Positions 39,566 to 48,488 of a stretch of DNA of 64,000 nucleotides are shown here, in pieces. The stretch lies in the NCBI GenBank assembly GCA_003602415.1, contig QQSK01000001.1:1353-65352 (forward strand), written 5' to 3'. How positions within the stretch are numbered: the first letter of the stretch is position 1; each line of letters opens with the position of its first letter. This DNA comes from Candidatus Poseidoniales archaeon (GTDB lineage Archaea > Thermoplasmatota > Poseidoniia > Poseidoniales > Poseidoniaceae). The notes under the pieces are model-generated. The model worked only from the letters and a program-made list of their open reading frames with translations. It ran no database searches and had not been told where the DNA came from. The translations under genes and the position numbers were made by a program.

Positions 39566-42331
39566 ATGGCAAGAGCATCGGTGACCACTTTAGTCCTCGC
39601 GATGATGATTTTAGCCGTTGTTCCACTATCTGCGCAAGCAGAAGACAGTGGAGGTGTTCAAGCTTCAGAATCTACCGTGGCAATCTCACCTTCTAATCCC
39701 GTTGAGGGCGGTTCCATTACCATCACATTGACCTTGTTTAATTCAAACAATTTTGAAGCCGAGGATGTGTTATACAAGTTCTATTGGAATGGCGTTTCCT
39801 CTTCGCAGTTAATCTCGGCGAATACCGTTGATATTGCAGCAGAATCCACTGCGGATGTTCAAATTGTAAAATCAGGATTAACCGTTGGTGAACACAAAGT
39901 ATGGGTCGCTTTCGAATATGCAGGTGGCGGTGAGCAAATTTTCTTCTCTGACATAATTGTCAGTGGGTTAGCAGATTTGGAAGCGACTTCGATTTCAACA
40001 AGCCCATCAGATATTGAATCAGGTGATTCTGTAACGATTTCGACTGAAGTCTCCAACACAGGTTCACAAGATGCAGCAGCAAGTCGCCTTCAAATCAATC
40101 TGGAAGACCAAAGCGAAATTTTTGATGTACCTTCTATACTAGCCGGAGAAAGTGTTTGGATAAATGAAACAATGACTGCACCTTCTTCCGGAACCTATGA
40201 TTTCGATGTGATTGTAGATTTGGATGACGCTGTCGTAGAAGCGGATGAAAGTAATACTTTCACTTCTTCAATAACTGTGGATGCTAGAATGGATATAGCC
40301 CATCAAGGAGAACTTTCAATCGATGTAGATGAAGGCGCTCTACAAGGCCCATGGACTGTTTCGGGTACGATAACAAGAACCGGCGGCAGCGGTGTAACCG
40401 AAGTTCCAATGCGTTTGGAAATTAAGGATGATGTAGGAGTCAATGTTCCATTACCTACTTTTTATGTTAACATCAGTGGTGGTGAAAACGCACAACAAGT
40501 TTGGTCATTCCCTCTCCTCTACAATTACATCTCAACATTATCTGCTGGAAATCACGAAGTTAGTGCAGTCATCGACCCGTACGGAACTGCATCTTTCATC
40601 CAAGAGACTACTGACAATGATCGCATAAGTGCTTACTTTGACAAGTACGATGTCCCTGATGTTTCAGTTGACCCTTATGCAATTCCATCAAAAAACACCG
40701 TCACAAGTGGTAGCAATGTCGATTGGACGGTCGCCATTACAAATTCAGGAGAAGTAGATGTTTCTGGTAGACTAATCTACACTTGGGAAGGTCAAACAGT
40801 AGAGGAAAACTCTCAACCAATAATCAACATTCAGCCTGGAGAAACTCATATCTGGACCGAGACTCTTCCTACAGAGAGTGGGTCACATGATGCAGACTTC
40901 GAAGCACAATGGATTCCAACCGCTGGGTCATTTGATGCTAATCCATTGAATTCCTTTGCAAACGGAAGTGTCGAGGTCACAGCTCAACTAAGGCTAACAT
41001 GGTCTAGAGCATCCATGTCATTGGTAGATTCTAGTCAAGAACCTGCAAATTTCCCATTGATCGCTGGGCAGGAATACACTGTTTCAATTAAACAGGGCTC
41101 TCAAGAAACAGGGTCAGTAAATTACTCCTGTGAAAACGAATTGGGAGAAGTATTTGGAGAGATTCAAATCGATGTAACCACAGGTGGGCAAATAGTAACG
41201 GTAGAATGCACATTTACTGCATCTGCGCCATTTACTAACATCAATTTGATTCCAGATGACAAAGCGGTTTGCGATACACAAACATGGAATTGGGACTCGA
41301 AAGAATCCAGTAGCAACGTGGCGGATGAAGCCGGTAGCATGAATTTCAAGACTGCAGGATTAATCGCAGTCATTTGTGTTGTTCTCATCGCCGTACTTAT
41401 CGCAGCCGTAATCTTGACCAGAGAAGTAGAAGAAGAAGTCGAGAGAGATATCTTTGATTATTGTCCTGCTTGTGATGGTGAATTAGAAGGCAATGAAGAC
41501 CGTTGTCCGTATTGTACATTCAATCTCAAGAAAGCAAGAAAGCAATTCCACGATTGTGAATCATGTGGTGAATCAATTCCAGATTTATTGTCGAATTGTC
41601 CATATTGTGGTGCTAATCAAGATGTATCGAAATACTTTGAGAGACGTGAACGCAGAGTCGTTGAAAAGGAAACAATTGCTCTTCAAGATGAAGAAGAAGT
41701 TGATCCTGAAACAATTCACGCAGCAGGATATGAAGGATTCGAAGAGGCTGTCAAAGAATTCGGTTACGATGCTGATGACCTTGAAGGTCATTGGGATGAA
41801 AATATCGCCAAGGCTGAGCAAGAAGTCGAGGCCGCTTATGATAGAAGAGTCGCAGCTGAAGAAGAATTCGACCTTGATGATGAAGAGGCAGTTAACACTG
41901 TAACAACCACGTTAAAGAGTATCAAAGAAACATTCGAAGGCCATGATATTGATGCGATTTTGAAAGATAAAGAAATCAAATCTCACGTTGATGACGGTGG
42001 CGAATTATCTGCTAGCGATGCAGATATTCGTGAAAGATTGTTCGAGATTACTGGCGAAGAGGGCGTATTACCTGGAGACGAAGTGAATATTGGAATGGGT
42101 ATTCAAGACCGATCTCTAGCAGGAAATGTACTTCCAGAAGATGCAATGGACTTCTCATTCGATGAGGAAGCAGACGAAGTAAACCCTGTCGCAGCAGCAG
42201 CCGCAGAAAGTAAGAGAAGGCGCGGTGTTAGAAGGAAGTCTAAGGTGAAAACCGCAGAATGTGGAGCATGTGGCGCAGATATTGCAGCTGATGCAAACGA
42301 GTGCTCTACATGCGGTGCTAAATTCGAATGA
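39566..42331 (+). CDS. Exported CARDB-repeat protein with large cytoplasmic multi-zinc-ribbon region
   Basis: A 921-aa protein. A signal peptide (residues 1-25, ending SAQAED) is followed by about five CARDB-like domains; the phrases SPSNPVEGGSITITLTLFN and SPSDIESGDSVTISTEVSN start two of them. A membrane helix lies at about residues 597-618. The cytoplasmic part of about 300 residues has two zinc ribbons directly after the membrane (CPACDGELEGNEDRCPYC near 633 and CESCGESIPDLLSNCPYC near 662), then an acidic helical region, a basic patch (SKRRRGVRRKSK) and a third ribbon at the very end (CGACGADIAADANECSTCG). The layout suggests transmembrane linkage of surface binding to a cytoplasmic partner; no enzyme domain is seen. 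Confidence 0.82.
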   Translation: MARASVTTLVLAMMILAVVPLSAQAEDSGGVQASESTVAISPSNPVEGGSITITLTLFNSNNFEAEDVLYKFYWNGVSSSQLISANTVDIAAESTADVQIVKSGLTVGEHKVWVAFEYAGGGEQIFFSDIIVSGLADLEATSISTSPSDIESGDSVTISTEVSNTGSQDAAASRLQINLEDQSEIFDVPSILAGESVWINETMTAPSSGTYDFDVIVDLDDAVVEADESNTFTSSITVDARMDIAHQGELSIDVDEGALQGPWTVSGTITRTGGSGVTEVPMRLEIKDDVGVNVPLPTFYVNISGGENAQQVWSFPLLYNYISTLSAGNHEVSAVIDPYGTASFIQETTDNDRISAYFDKYDVPDVSVDPYAIPSKNTVTSGSNVDWTVAITNSGEVDVSGRLIYTWEGQTVEENSQPIINIQPGETHIWTETLPTESGSHDADFEAQWIPTAGSFDANPLNSFANGSVEVTAQLRLTWSRASMSLVDSSQEPANFPLIAGQEYTVSIKQGSQETGSVNYSCENELGEVFGEIQIDVTTGGQIVTVECTFTASAPFTNINLIPDDKAVCDTQTWNWDSKESSSNVADEAGSMNFKTAGLIAVICVVLIAVLIAAVILTREVEEEVERDIFDYCPACDGELEGNEDRCPYCTFNLKKARKQFHDCESCGESIPDLLSNCPYCGANQDVSKYFERRERRVVEKETIALQDEEEVDPETIHAAGYEGFEEAVKEFGYDADDLEGHWDENIAKAEQEVEAAYDRRVAAEEEFDLDDEEAVNTVTTTLKSIKETFEGHDIDAILKDKEIKSHVDDGGELSASDADIRERLFEITGEEGVLPGDEVNIGMGIQDRSLAGNVLPEDAMDFSFDEEADEVNPVAAAAAESKRRRGVRRKSKVKTAECGACGADIAADANECSTCGAKFE

Positions 42332-42478: not shown

Positions 42479-43042
42479 ATGAGGGCAAAACCAGCGATGT
42501 CTGCATTCATCATGCTCGCAATATTGCTAGCCTCGAGTATGGGATGCATCGGACTTGTTCCTGCTCGCGAATTTATGGAGGATTTGAGAGACCCTCCAAA
42601 GATGGTCGATGTTACAGAGAAAATCAATGCATCTCACGTTTTTACAACCGACATAACCAATGTTCAAGGCTCAACTAGTTATTCTACTTCTCAAACTTTT
42701 GATGTAGATGCAAATGTCAAGGAGATCAGTGCTTACATTTCTACCCAGATGCCTTTGGAATTGGTACTCCCAGGTATTCCTACTGAAGTTAGGTACGTTA
42801 CGGCGACTTTAACCGATGCAGATGGCAATCAAGTTTGGTTCGCAGAAGTTACAGAGACTGAGAGAAAGATGGTCGAAACTTTCCAGCAACCATTAGCAGA
42901 AGGGGAATGGACTTTGAATGTAGAAGCCAGAGGTTATGGGGAAGAATTAGCAAACCTGTACAAGGACTCATTCCAGGTTTTGGTTAAGATTGAGAGTGAG
43001 TGTTGGAAATATCCAAACGAAGATGTATGTTCATTCGATTAG
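42479..43042 (+). CDS. Putative archaeal lipoprotein
   Basis: A 187-aa protein with a lipoprotein-type signal: hydrophobic stretch SAFIMLAILLASSMGC with the lipobox Cys at residue 23. The mature part is a compact beta-rich domain with no motif I recognise. Its last six residues contain one Cys and are acidic. The ATG at 42479 is not preceded by a strong binding site; Met7 is an alternative. The 147-nt gap before it holds nothing I can support beyond a possible promoter. Its end overlaps the convergent nuclease gene by 4 nt. Confidence 0.7.
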   Translation: MRAKPAMSAFIMLAILLASSMGCIGLVPAREFMEDLRDPPKMVDVTEKINASHVFTTDITNVQGSTSYSTSQTFDVDANVKEISAYISTQMPLELVLPGIPTEVRYVTATLTDADGNQVWFAEVTETERKMVETFQQPLAEGEWTLNVEARGYGEELANLYKDSFQVLVKIESECWKYPNEDVCSFD

Positions 43043-44238
43043 ACCAAGCTTGAATCACAGGCATATCTTCTCGAGCAACTCTGACACTTCCCTTTCCGAT
43101 TGTGGTTTCTTTCAGCACCACCTTCAACCATTAGACGTTGAACTTCTTTGATTGCCGAAAATAGAGTATGCTTACTTTCATCGTTCCAATCAATACTGTG
43201 AAGGTTTTCTGAACCATACTTCAGCACTCCATATGGGGGGGTTCTTCCAGTTGTAGATTCTACCAAGTGGATATATGCCAGTAATTGCATGCGGTGAGAT
43301 TTGTGAGGCTTATCTGGTATTTTGCCAGTTTTCTGTTCGACGGGTATGAACTCTCCATCCACAATCACAATTTGGTCAGGTTTCCCTCTAACCCCTGTAT
43401 GGTCATCGACCAACAAACCTGCGGTCGAATCATCATCTGAATAAGCGAGTTCCATATTTTCATCAATACCTGCATCGATTCTTGCGGTTTCTACTGCGCT
43501 ATCTGCAAGTAGCGCTCGTTGTAATTGCCAAGACGCCATTAGTGTCCAAACCATTGCAACAGTAACAAGAATAAACCCTGCTTGCTCTTTATCTTCAGCC
43601 CACATTAATGCTATTGCGTGTAATCCAAAGATGGTAGCACCAATTAACAAACCAGCCTCAACTTTACCACCTTGACCCCATCCTCCAATGAATCCGAATG
43701 GCTGAAAAGTGAAGGGAATAATCTCATCTTCAAGCGTACTAATTTCTTGAATCTCGTCGAGTTCACTGATTTGGGAATCGGTCCACCTTCGCCAAGGTAG
43801 ATAGATTGCAATCAAACCTAACACTAGCCAAATTAGAGATAGGATGGTCAGATATCTTGCAAAATCAACCGGGGCATTAGTATCTGTAATATTTGTAAAA
43901 ATTAGAGCATCTGTGATAAAAATAATTACAATTGTAAACCACCAAGACCAAATGATTAGCGCCTTTTTCAGATCATTTTGTTTTTGTTTGAACAAATTCA
44001 TTTTTTCATGAATTTCAGCATGCTTCTTTCTTCCAGCATCAATTGCTTCACCCTTCCCACTTTTTCCTTCTCTTGCCAATGACCAGGACAATGGACAGTA
44101 GGTGTGACGTTCCAAATCACTTGCAGAAACATGCAATGCATTACCGGAATCATCTCTCCAGAATCCATCATCACTTTCTACTGCGATTATTGGATTGCTT
44201 GAGCCTGCATCTGCGATATTTCCACCTCCGGTAGCCAT
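43039..44238 (-). CDS. Cas4/RecB-like PD-(D/E)XK nuclease with four inserted transmembrane helices
   Basis: A 399-aa protein carrying the complete Cas4-type set. Cys48 (HTYCPLSW) and the C-terminal Cys385, Cys388 and Cys394 (CQSCSRRYAC) would hold a 4Fe-4S cluster. His73 (GRKKHAEIH), Asp288 (GVRGKPDQI), Glu301 and Lys303 (PVEQKTG) form the nuclease centre. Gln318-x3-Tyr322 (MQLLAYIHL) is the QxxxY motif. Between His73 and Asp288 about 150 residues are inserted, with four strongly hydrophobic helices (about 93-114, 126-147, 195-214, 219-240). The expected reaction is cleavage of DNA, but here at the membrane face. No cas1, cas2 or CRISPR repeat lies in the window. The first 35 residues are low-complexity and the start codon is uncertain. 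Confidence 0.85.
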   Translation of the reverse strand: MATGGGNIADAGSSNPIIAVESDDGFWRDDSGNALHVSASDLERHTYCPLSWSLAREGKSGKGEAIDAGRKKHAEIHEKMNLFKQKQNDLKKALIIWSWWFTIVIIFITDALIFTNITDTNAPVDFARYLTILSLIWLVLGLIAIYLPWRRWTDSQISELDEIQEISTLEDEIIPFTFQPFGFIGGWGQGGKVEAGLLIGATIFGLHAIALMWAEDKEQAGFILVTVAMVWTLMASWQLQRALLADSAVETARIDAGIDENMELAYSDDDSTAGLLVDDHTGVRGKPDQIVIVDGEFIPVEQKTGKIPDKPHKSHRMQLLAYIHLVESTTGRTPPYGVLKYGSENLHSIDWNDESKHTLFSAIKEVQRLMVEGGAERNHNRKGKCQSCSRRYACDSSLV

Positions 44239-44376
44239 CGGCTAACATGAGTTGAAATCAAGGTTGTGCCTACTAGTGTTAGTCCAGATTCGCATTACTG
44301 TGTCATAATTCGAAATTTTGCTGGACGAAGCGGTTATTTAGGGGGGGATGGTGGCCCGAATGCTGGAGTCTATACT

Positions 44377-44976
44377 ATGACTGAACTTCTCATCGACCGT
44401 GAGACCTACGAGACACATGCTGTTCACATTGGAACACAGCAGAAAAGCGCTGATATGGCACAGTTTATTCAAGAGGTTCGCTCTGATGGATTGTACTTGA
44501 TAGACATCGAAATTACAGATGGCAGAATCCGAGCAATCTCTCAATTCTTGAATCGTTACAATCCAGCAAATATCATGGTTGTTAGTGCAAGACAATACGG
44601 ACAACGCCCAGCACGAAAGTTTGCTGAAGCTATCGGTGCTAATGCTAGTGTAGGCCGCTTTATTCCTGGAAGCCTAACAAATCCTGCTCTTCGTTCCTAT
44701 GTAGAGCCTGATATGCTATTCGTTACAGACCCTGCTGCAGACCAGCAGGCACTTAGAGAGGCAGTCAATTCAGGACTTCCGATTGTTGGAATTTGTGATG
44801 CAAACAATAACCTAAGAAATGTCGATCTTGCTCTACCTGCAAATAATAAGGGTAGAAAGTCTCTATCTCTACTATACTGGATTTTAGCCCGTGAAGTCTT
44901 GAAGGCTCGTGGAGAAACAACCGATGAAGCTTGGGCTGAAGCACAAGACCTTGAAGACTGGGAATCTACTTTCTGA
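44377..44976 (+). CDS. rps2: Ribosomal protein S2 (uS2)
   Basis: A 199-aa small-subunit protein. It has HAVHIGTQQKSADMAQF, ANIMVVSARQYGQRPARKFAEAIGA in two pieces (IMVVSARQYGQRPARKFAEA), GRFIPGSLTNP, LFVTDPAADQQALREA and PIVGICDANNNLRNVDLALP, all typical of archaeal uS2. I chose the ATG at 44377 because GGAG lies 8 nt upstream and because homologues begin near here; the open frame continues upstream to 44266 without family similarity. A TATA-like TTATTTA near 44333 fits as promoter. Confidence 0.95.
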   Translation: MTELLIDRETYETHAVHIGTQQKSADMAQFIQEVRSDGLYLIDIEITDGRIRAISQFLNRYNPANIMVVSARQYGQRPARKFAEAIGANASVGRFIPGSLTNPALRSYVEPDMLFVTDPAADQQALREAVNSGLPIVGICDANNNLRNVDLALPANNKGRKSLSLLYWILAREVLKARGETTDEAWAEAQDLEDWESTF

Positions 44977-46056: not shown

Positions 46057-46677
46057 ATGAACCCACAATTGCAGAACATTTTGATGCAGGATGCCATTAT
46101 TGTACAACAGGCTATAGAAATGGTTAATGTAATTGTTAATATTGATACTGCAAACAACTACGATTTATTCGCAACAACAGGTCACAAGCTAGGAACTGTC
46201 TCCGAAGTTGGCGGCGGTGCAGGTGGATTTATTCTGCGCCAACTATTCAATAACGCTCGTGCTTGCACTTTGCACATTGCTGATAATCATGGCCAAGTAG
46301 TTGGAACGGCTAAGAAACCATTTCGCCTATTCTTCTCTGAGATGGTTGCAGTCGACGGTAATGCCGAGGTAGGTCGTGCCAAAAGAGTCAGTTTTTTGAA
46401 AAGAAATTATGTCATTTCAGTAGGTGGAGTTGGAGGCTCAGTGTTCCAAATCGAAAGCAGTTGGTTCCAATTCAAAAGATTTAGTTTCAATGTCAAAAGA
46501 AATGGAATTGTGGTTGCATCTATCAATAAAAAATTCGAAGGATTCATGAAAATGGCTTTCACTCAAGCGGATAACTTTTCAATTCAATTTATTGATAAGA
46601 ACTTGACTTTAGAAGAGCGATACACATTATTCGCAACATTATTCCTCATCGACTTTGATGTCTTTGAACAAATGTGA
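46057..46677 (+). CDS. Scramblase/LURP-one-related (Tubby-like fold) protein
   Basis: A 206-aa protein with the beta-barrel pattern of the phospholipid-scramblase/LOR family: YDLFATTGHKLGTVSEVGGG, then LHIADNHGQVVGTAKKPFR, then FQIESSWFQFKRFSFNV and VVASINKKFEG. A final hydrophobic helix (TLFATLFLIDFDVF) matches the buried C-terminal helix of the fold. The function of prokaryotic members is unknown; lipid transfer should not be assumed. A Gly-rich segment near residues 48-57 is unusual. It starts 25 nt after the dihydrouridine synthase and may be co-transcribed. Confidence 0.7.
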   Translation: MNPQLQNILMQDAIIVQQAIEMVNVIVNIDTANNYDLFATTGHKLGTVSEVGGGAGGFILRQLFNNARACTLHIADNHGQVVGTAKKPFRLFFSEMVAVDGNAEVGRAKRVSFLKRNYVISVGGVGGSVFQIESSWFQFKRFSFNVKRNGIVVASINKKFEGFMKMAFTQADNFSIQFIDKNLTLEERYTLFATLFLIDFDVFEQM

Positions 46678-46679
46678 AA

Positions 46680-47771
46680 TCAAGAATTGGCAGATTCTAA
46701 ATTCGAGCCAATCTTTTCGATTCTTCTCAAGATTCGATCTAAGTCATCCATCGATTTTTGTTTCATCATAGTAACGTCCATGCCGACTAAGCGATGACCC
46801 AATGGCAGACGGCCTCCAAGTAAATTCAGAAGTAACATCTGGTCTTTAGCAGACATATTCTTCAACGCCTTCTCAATAGTTTCAGGCTTGCAATTACCCT
46901 TCTTGAGATTTTTCAAAATCGAGTTGGGAACAGATAATCTCTCAAACCCGCCTTTCTTTAACAACCAGTCTTCTCCTCTTCTCATATGTTGGGTAGTCAT
47001 CGCTGACCAAAGTGCAGTGGATAGCCGGTCGGTTCTAGCGATACGCTCAACCAATCCAGTAGCTCTGAATCTCTCGAGTATTCTACCCACACGAGGTTTA
47101 GGCCCTCCTAGTTCTTTGGCTGCTTCATCTATGGAAATTGGTGGTCCAGATTTTAGTAACAATTCAAACAATTTGACAGATAGAGAATCAGGATTATTCT
47201 CCTTACCAGGTCTTTCACCTAACAAACCCGAATCTGCCATAAATCGAGAGAGTTCGTTTTCTTCATTTTCCAAAGGACCCCATTCTTTGATACGAAGTAA
47301 TGCCTTTGGTTTACCATCTGGTGGCAATTCAATTTTCATTGCCACTTTTTTGCCTCTATTCCAAACTTCATCTAATAATTCTAAGCGTTGAGAATGAATA
47401 AGTTTAGCACGTATCTTCATATTATCAATTGCCTTAGAAATCGAGCCACCTGTGAGGTAATAGTTTTTCCAACCTTTACCTGATGAAGTAGATACCAAAC
47501 CTGCAGATACTAGACGAGCAAAGTGATGATGAATAGCAGCGGGCGTGAGTCCCAAATTTTCAGCCAATTCTCGGGTTTCATATCCCTTAGATGGATCTTT
47601 GAACAGGTGTTCAGATAGTACTCGATGGATTGGAGAAAAACTTCCATCGTCAGCAGCGTTTTCACTACGTCTACGATGTAGACAGAGAGTATCTATTATC
47701 CAAGATATCAAATTCTCTCTGTCTTTTTTACTCGCCGGTAATGGAATTTCATCTAGGCGAAGGTCGAACAT
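46680..47771 (-). CDS. Winged-helix transcriptional regulator-like protein
   Basis: A 363-aa protein with an ArsR-type winged helix near residues 45-110 (YETRELAENLGLTPAAIHHHFARL, with recognition helix TPAAIHHHF) and a second helix-turn-helix near 200-245 (PISIDEAAKELGGPKPRVGRIL). The C-terminal third is helical and basic, not recognised. No ligand domain is obvious. I prefer the ATG at 47771; a TTG at 47804 would add 11 residues. It is one of three neighbouring DNA-binding proteins on this strand, which suggests a small regulatory island. Confidence 0.75.
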   Translation of the reverse strand: MFDLRLDEIPLPASKKDRENLISWIIDTLCLHRRRSENAADDGSFSPIHRVLSEHLFKDPSKGYETRELAENLGLTPAAIHHHFARLVSAGLVSTSSGKGWKNYYLTGGSISKAIDNMKIRAKLIHSQRLELLDEVWNRGKKVAMKIELPPDGKPKALLRIKEWGPLENEENELSRFMADSGLLGERPGKENNPDSLSVKLFELLLKSGPPISIDEAAKELGGPKPRVGRILERFRATGLVERIARTDRLSTALWSAMTTQHMRRGEDWLLKKGGFERLSVPNSILKNLKKGNCKPETIEKALKNMSAKDQMLLLNLLGGRLPLGHRLVGMDVTMMKQKSMDDLDRILRRIEKIGSNLESANS

Positions 47772-47840
47772 ACTACCGACCGATTGACTAGAGGTCTTGA
47801 ACAATGCGCAACAAACGTCGCCTGAGAGACGATTACTGAA

Positions 47841-48488
47841 TCATCTTCGCTCATCGGACCATTCATAATCCGGGCTCTTTGATGGCTTCCACTCTTCAAC
47901 ATCAACCAAATGTGGTGCCATTTCAAGACGGTCTTCACGCAGAATCCCACGCCTTCGTAATACTTTGACAGCCGAATGAACCGTAGCACGAGACCTACCA
48001 ATTCTTCTTGCTAGTGAGGCTTGAGAACGAGGGATTCCATTGATTCTAATGTCGTCAATAATTGTTCGCTGAACTAAAGATAAACCAATTGGCATTTTTC
48101 TAGCAGCCTCATGCTCTCCCACAGACATCCCTCTTAGCACTTCAACTTGTGATGGTGCGCCAGCAAAGTAGCAAGTTCTTCCATTAACAGATATGATCGT
48201 AATCGCTTTTCGGCTAGACAAAACATCGAGGTGATGTCTCAAAGTTCCATTGGCTGCAGAAAGAGTTGCTTGTAATTCACGATAACATAATCCTGGAGAT
48301 TTATCCAATGTTCTAAGAATTCTCTGACGCAAAGGGTGTTCGTAATCACTAATCCTTGCTTTGACTCCTCCTCTAGCAAACGCTAGAGAAGAGATACTGG
48401 ACCCAATTCCTAGAAGTCCACCAGTAGCACCAGCTAGACCTGCAGCAAGCCAAGGCCGCTGAGAAATCCACTGTCTGAGGAGTGCCAT
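47841..48488 (-). CDS. Membrane-anchored double winged-helix regulator
   Basis: A 215-aa protein. A hydrophobic, Gly-rich helix at residues about 13-36 (WLAAGLAGATGGLLGIGSSI) is followed by two winged helices: residues about 50-110 (LRQRILRTLDKSPGLCYREL, SAANGTLRHHLDVL) and about 140-190 (RIGRSRATVHSAVKVLRRRG). The arrangement of an N-terminal membrane segment plus two MarR/ArsR-like domains suggests that DNA is bound at the membrane, for example in response to an envelope signal. The target is unknown. It may be co-transcribed with the neighbouring winged-helix gene, 69 nt away. Confidence 0.75.
   Translation of the reverse strand: MALLRQWISQRPWLAAGLAGATGGLLGIGSSISSLAFARGGVKARISDYEHPLRQRILRTLDKSPGLCYRELQATLSAANGTLRHHLDVLSSRKAITIISVNGRTCYFAGAPSQVEVLRGMSVGEHEAARKMPIGLSLVQRTIIDDIRINGIPRSQASLARRIGRSRATVHSAVKVLRRRGILREDRLEMAPHLVDVEEWKPSKSPDYEWSDERR

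Follow-up and report, generated by a model that had tools for sequence, protein, structure and literature searches.

The window, a stretch of 64,000 nucleotides from a Candidatus Poseidoniales archaeon, carries on its minus strand a gene (TM-Cas4) whose product is predicted to combine a PD-(D/E)XK nuclease core with four transmembrane helices. The gene is flanked by a convergent lipoprotein-like gene and by the divergent gene of ribosomal protein uS2 (rpsB), the conserved part of which begins at ~44341. The features of the locus are the following.

42479..43042, plus strand: neighbouring lipoprotein-like gene, convergent; the 3' ends overlap by 4 bases
43039..44238, minus strand: TM-Cas4 gene, ATG start, 399 aa
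43042..43452, minus strand: C-terminal nuclease core, residues 263-399, PD-(D/E)XK; Pfam PF12705/PF01930, Foldseek Dna2/Cas4
43057..43086, minus strand: putative C-terminal Fe-S ligands C385, C388, C394; pair with Pcal_0546 Cys200/203/209, invariant
43273..43377, minus strand: catalytic motifs D288, E301/K303, H315, Q318xxxY322; one-to-one with Pcal_0546 residues
43522..43578, minus strand: predicted transmembrane helix 4, residues 221-239; mean hydropathy peak 1.66, model helix 217-256
43600..43656, minus strand: predicted transmembrane helix 3, residues 195-213; mean hydropathy peak 1.91
43798..43854, minus strand: predicted transmembrane helix 2, residues 129-147; mean hydropathy peak 2.35
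43888..43944, minus strand: predicted transmembrane helix 1, residues 99-117; mean hydropathy peak 1.88, continuous model helix 64-116
43963..44133, minus strand: N-terminal part of the nuclease fold, residues 36-92; SASDLERxxYCPLSW and GxxxH motifs
44020-44022, minus strand: putative metal-site residue H73; aligned to Pcal_0546 His94, invariant
44095-44097, minus strand: putative Fe-S ligand C48; aligned to Pcal_0546 Cys64, invariant
44266..44976, plus strand: neighbouring uS2 gene (rpsB), divergent; Pfam Ribosomal_S2 8e-22

The Cas4-type nuclease core

The window protein matches PDDEXK_1 (PF12705) over residues 263-395 (E=1.4e-10, 41.9 bits against a gathering cut-off of 22) and Cas_Cas4 (PF01930) over residues 284-394 (E=4.4e-10, 40.3 bits against a gathering cut-off of 22.7). 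Among the aligned family members, PDDEXK_1 is found in 52/52 and Cas_Cas4 in 50/52. In the 52-sequence homologue alignment, the invariant columns include S38, E43, Y47, C48, H73, G285, and P287 as well as K303, H315, Y322, C385, C388, and C394, while the conservation of D288, E301, and Q318 is at least 90%.

Two blocks of the family profile align with Pcal_0546, a Cas4 of solved structure (4r5q); the N-terminal block is weak alone (3.7 bits), yet in register. In this pairing, which is read off the alignment by eye and in which chain positions of 4r5q run 3 ahead of those in the paper, C48 corresponds to Cys64 and C385, C388, and C394 correspond to Cys200, Cys203, and Cys209, whereas H73, D288, E301, K303, H315, and Q318 correspond to His94, Asp123, Glu136, Lys138, His146, and Gln149, respectively. 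In Pcal_0546, these counterparts bind the cluster or the metal or belong to the nuclease motifs (PMC4176176). The original prediction that the full Cas4 residue set is present is thus borne out, its cysteines and D-ExK residues being conserved in the alignment; invariant H315, the partner of metal ligand His146, is an addition to its list.

In a Foldseek search with the full-length AlphaFold model of the window protein (pLDDT 83.8, pTM 0.77), the core matches Dna2, Cas4, MGME1, and AdnAB. The model contains long helices at residues 64-116, 123-146, 192-213, and 217-256, and its linker at residues 158-188 is poorly predicted. A relative with a single hairpin (L137, 278 aa) is modelled with pLDDT 91.8 and pTM 0.86. 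Its helices 36-93 and 96-134 form one long continuous hairpin extending out of the nuclease, and the whole chain matches Cas4 8d3l_J over 281 columns with a TM-score of 0.68 on Cas4 length. Therefore, the insert appears to leave the Cas4 fold intact. By superposition and homology, Cys48 would also lie close to the C-terminal cysteines, in line with the original prediction. In the models of both the window protein and the one-hairpin relative, the His-bearing helix of the nuclease runs on into a membrane helix.

These profile matches and models support the assignment of the window protein as a probable member of the Cas4-type Fe-S PD-(D/E)XK nucleases, with Fe-S cluster binding and nuclease activity as predicted properties. 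Like Cas4 (PF01930; Pcal_0546, SSO0001; type I-C 8d3l), it has a PD-(D/E)XK core, a four-Cys Fe-S staple, and the His and QhxxY motifs, and the one-hairpin form is predicted to share the Cas4 fold along the whole chain. Unlike Cas4, members of the family have roughly 90-185 extra residues of predicted membrane hairpin placed after the His helix and ahead of the first catalytic strand, occur without cas1/cas2, and exist in a two-gene form in three families. The RecB-like nuclease fold is also shared with MGME1 and with the nuclease domains of Dna2, AddB, and AdnAB, but MGME1 is mitochondrial, the others are helicase-linked, and all are without a transmembrane insert. AddB also shares the iron-staple layout (PMC3466216). 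The nuclease core gives weak family-level or fold matches to TIGR03491/ACE1 (the Argonaute-associated Cas4 family) and to DruK, which differ in having other partners. TIGR03491/ACE1 and DruK nucleases are not known to have membrane hairpins. Cas4, Dna2, and AddB nucleases are known as soluble or helicase-linked enzymes.

The predicted membrane insert and its topology

The insert with the four hydrophobic helices sits between the metal-site His and the catalytic Asp. These two residues are 215 residues apart in the window protein and 29 in Pcal_0546, so the insert comprises ~186 residues. Averaged over the Poseidoniales alignment rows, its hydropathy shows exactly four peaks (1.66-2.35), in agreement with the four helices proposed originally from the single sequence. 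When a simple hydropathy threshold is applied to individual sequences, the fourth helix is sometimes missed, and helix-count parity is therefore left out as a formal test. In non-Poseidoniales members, the K/R content per residue is 0.20-0.21 in the presumed inside segments, as against 0.05-0.09 in the outside loops, a contrast that is weaker among Poseidoniales. This positive-inside pattern supports the predicted location of the nuclease on the cytoplasmic side of the membrane, where the original prediction had also put it. The helices are predicted to be transmembrane from their hydropathy and conservation, from the AlphaFold model, and from the positive-inside pattern.

Could the protein be an ordinary soluble solo-Cas4 with a hydrophobic insert that is not embedded, or a dead pseudo-nuclease? 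The score of TIGR00372 (cas4) on the window protein, 58.1 bits, is short of the 65-bit equivalog cut-off, and the topology evidence is indirect. However, the four hydropathy peaks are conserved and accompanied by the positive-inside pattern, the catalytic residues are at least 90% conserved, and, as described below, the hairpins duplicate and the natural splits fall between hairpin helices. We therefore regard a soluble or dead protein as highly improbable.

Our preferred reading, which we consider quite likely on the profile, conservation, and model evidence, is that the window protein belongs to the solo Cas4-type Fe-S nucleases and is integral to the cytoplasmic membrane. The chain would begin the nuclease fold in the cytoplasm with the Fe-S ligand Cys48 and the metal-site His73, cross the membrane in two hairpins, and come back to the cytoplasm, where it would complete the fold with D-ExK-H-QxxxY and three Cys. 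Because the membrane helices continue the His-bearing nuclease helix, the active site would be fixed at the inner membrane face. Homology predicts a Mg2+- or Mn2+-dependent enzyme that starts at free ends and degrades single-stranded DNA (PMC4176176, PMC3466216); its direction is probably 5' to 3'.

Distribution, hairpin number and natural two-gene versions

A homologue is present in 41/61 relatives and in 188/293 genomes sampled across the phylum Thermoplasmatota, indicating that the feature is far beyond chance. The gene is found in nearly all Poseidoniaceae examined and in some genera of the sister family. A chance or mis-framed ORF is ruled out by the conserved family, and a gene peculiar to the window's genome by its homologues across the phylum. 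The arrangement, a possible one-off when first noticed, thus belongs to a phylum-wide family with a variable number of hairpins and natural two-gene versions. One genome has a second, apparently broken gene copy with internal stop codons (G141:C6:85816-86948) and an intact copy elsewhere.

Homologues have 2 hydrophobic helices (one hairpin; for example L137, L148, and L153), 4 (two hairpins, as in most), or expansions to 6-8 (L150, L151, L161, and L170). Among members outside the Poseidoniales, HHalign finds hairpin 1 homologous to hairpin 2 (97.65%, E=2.5e-12). The controls, one reversed and 30 with shuffled columns, reach at most 7.9%, which rules out mere hydrophobicity as the source of the likeness. 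Within the Poseidoniales themselves, no likeness between hairpins 1 and 2 is detectable. The homology indicates that the hairpin is the unit that duplicates.

The hairpins may also sense the state of the membrane or a ligand and switch the nuclease on, in the manner of an effector. The variation of the hairpins (2 to 8 helices) beside a constant nuclease is consistent with such gating, as is the continuation of the catalytic-His helix into the membrane. However, neutral duplication could equally give the hairpin variation, and the analysis identified neither a partner nor a ligand pocket or sensor domain. A nuclease gated by a membrane signal is therefore improbable.

In families f16, f27, and f6, the nuclease is encoded by two adjacent ORFs that overlap or abut. 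In ORF1 (about 85-120 aa), the SASE--Y-YC--W and G---H motifs are followed by one terminal hydrophobic helix. ORF2 starts with one hydrophobic helix, followed by the D-ExK-QxxxY core and three Cys. The split point in all three families is exactly between both helices of a single hairpin. Families f16 and f27 together show the same split point at 22 loci and f6 at three, a recurrence that rules out sequencing frameshifts. Single-contig genomes account for some of the split versions. In a 73-row tree, which rests on few columns and in which the f6 branch is long, f16 and f27 group together (98/91) beside the one-hairpin forms, and f6 lies elsewhere, indicating at least two independent split events.

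As the split falls between the hairpin helices, the nuclease would need rebuilding from two membrane-anchored halves. A split at this position is understandable only if each half is held by the membrane and finds the other within it, and it is the strongest independent evidence for membrane hairpins. In such natural split nucleases, two membrane proteins would need to complete the Fe-S cluster and the active site. We tentatively suggest, at somewhat less than even confidence, a class of membrane-assembled Fe-S nucleases, in which the bilayer and the hairpin scaffold would unite two active-site halves around one shared Fe-S cluster. Most Thermoplasmatota would make this enzyme as one chain, in three families it would function only as a pair of proteins, and the amplified hairpins might gate it.

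ORF2 of f27 and f6 has an ordinary ATG/GTG/TTG start. In f16 (L166, L167, L173-L175, and L213-L222), the start of ORF2 overlaps the ORF1 stop, appears to be ATA in 12/15 loci and TTG in 2, and lies 5 nt after a conserved Shine-Dalgarno-like GRGGTGRT; in L167 and L173, there is no ATG/GTG/TTG within 75 nt. The f16 ORF2 could be translated either by AUA initiation, by coupled re-initiation, or by a frameshift.

Genomic context and possible roles

In the Poseidoniales, the gene lies in strong synteny between the lipoprotein-like gene and rpsB. It is cleanly absent from genera g12, g16, and g20 of family f2, where the lipoprotein-like gene directly adjoins rpsB, and from two members of the window's own genus (G001 and G010; clean-absence loci L238-L243, L226, and L227). 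Therefore, the gene is dispensable. These losses fit an accessory role, in defence or maintenance alike.

Cas1 is found in 0/61 Poseidoniales genomes, including that of the window, while the positive control gives a match in 9/14 genomes. Together with the TIGR00372 score below cut-off, this rules out a CRISPR Cas4 identity in the Poseidoniales and agrees with the original observation that no CRISPR genes are nearby. The window gene lies outside CRISPR and mobile-element context, as expected of a solo-Cas4. The solo-Cas4 proteins of archaea surveyed by Hudaiberdiev et al. 2017 (PMC5704561) are likewise encoded outside CRISPR loci; their inheritance is mostly vertical. The main text of that survey makes no mention of membrane, transmembrane, or split forms (PMC5704561), and we found no description of a membrane Cas4 in the open-access literature. 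We file the window protein as a putative solo Cas4-type Fe-S nuclease in a new membrane-embedded variant, distinct from CRISPR Cas4. It looks like one member of an overlooked family of membrane-bound nucleases across an archaeal phylum, a family that would offer a testable entry to the role of solo-Cas4.

The original prediction favoured a solo Cas4-like protein of defence or DNA uptake. The solo status holds, but a specific defence role finds no support, given the absence of defence neighbours, the apparently mostly vertical inheritance, and the clean losses. As a front-line innate defence, the nuclease would degrade viral or plasmid DNA entering at the inner face of the membrane. Its dispensability and the lack of Cas1 in the 61 Poseidoniales genomes are compatible with this, and the occurrence of solo-Cas4 beside restriction-modification genes in some DPANN archaea has been taken as a hint of defence (PMC5704561). 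However, no defence gene adjoins it in the window, where the defence models match the neighbours only through weak Csa3-like matches of HTH regulators, and its neighbours elsewhere are housekeeping genes. Signs of mobility are few as well: no relative was found in viral contigs or phage records, and plasmids matched only with distant Cas4s. We regard a defence role as rather unlikely. The same searches speak against a viral or plasmid origin of the gene. The two HTH regulators lie at 46680-47804 and 47841-48488 of the window on the minus strand, with Csa3-like matches of 1.8e-12 and 5e-6, respectively.

DNA is a nutrient for marine heterotrophs, and a membrane nuclease could act in DNA uptake or nucleotide scavenging. 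The membrane location is compatible with such a function, but no ComEC-type channel is found in the 61 Poseidoniales genomes, the nuclease is predicted to be on the cytoplasmic side, and the gene family is present in many other families of the phylum too. Uptake or scavenging is thus very unlikely, and that part of the original prediction is not upheld.

Alternatively, the protein may serve genome maintenance as a membrane-docked end-resection nuclease of the Dna2/AddB type, with broken or stalled host DNA as its substrate. Its closest folds are Dna2, Cas4, MGME1, and AdnAB, and NurA, the usual archaeal resection nuclease, is found in 0/61 Poseidoniales genomes, with the controls matched. It is not an obligatory replacement of NurA, since several f2 genera are without both NurA and the membrane Cas4. 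No helicase partner of the membrane Cas4 was found. A TPD-family gene (PF14811) immediately precedes the membrane Cas4 gene, in the same orientation, at nine loci from five families, f42, f30, f37, f17, and f38 (L138, L141, L142, L152, L156, L158, L163, L164, and L169); the PF14811 match is 1.2e-45 in one tested TPD gene, and the remaining loci are assigned by clustering. We take PF14811 (TPD) to be a PD-(D/E)XK-type nuclease. The TPD protein is a candidate functional partner of the membrane Cas4. In the Poseidoniales, however, TPD lies elsewhere in the genome and is kept in genomes without the membrane Cas4 as well as in those with it. An end-resection role is possible, though somewhat doubtful.

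In the 73-row tree, rows of one family mostly cluster together. This clustering points somewhat towards DNA maintenance, as do the housekeeping neighbours and the link with TPD. For the membrane-embedded solo Cas4-type nuclease, we propose, tentatively, the role of a non-essential surveillance or clean-up nuclease that would trim DNA ends at the membrane, with either invading DNA or broken host DNA as its possible target. If such a membrane-threaded version exists phylum-wide, archaea would have an enzyme dedicated to processing DNA at their membrane.

Two further genes of the window encode proteins of interest. An archaeal scramblase-family protein (PF03803, 1.2e-34) at 46057-46677 on the plus strand adjoins rpsB and a tRNA-dihydrouridine synthase-like gene. 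A CARDB-domain surface protein of 921 aa at 39566-42331 on the plus strand has one apparent membrane helix and a zinc-ribbon tail, and its relatives are encoded near the membrane Cas4 gene in 85/91 Poseidoniales loci that hold the Cas4 gene.
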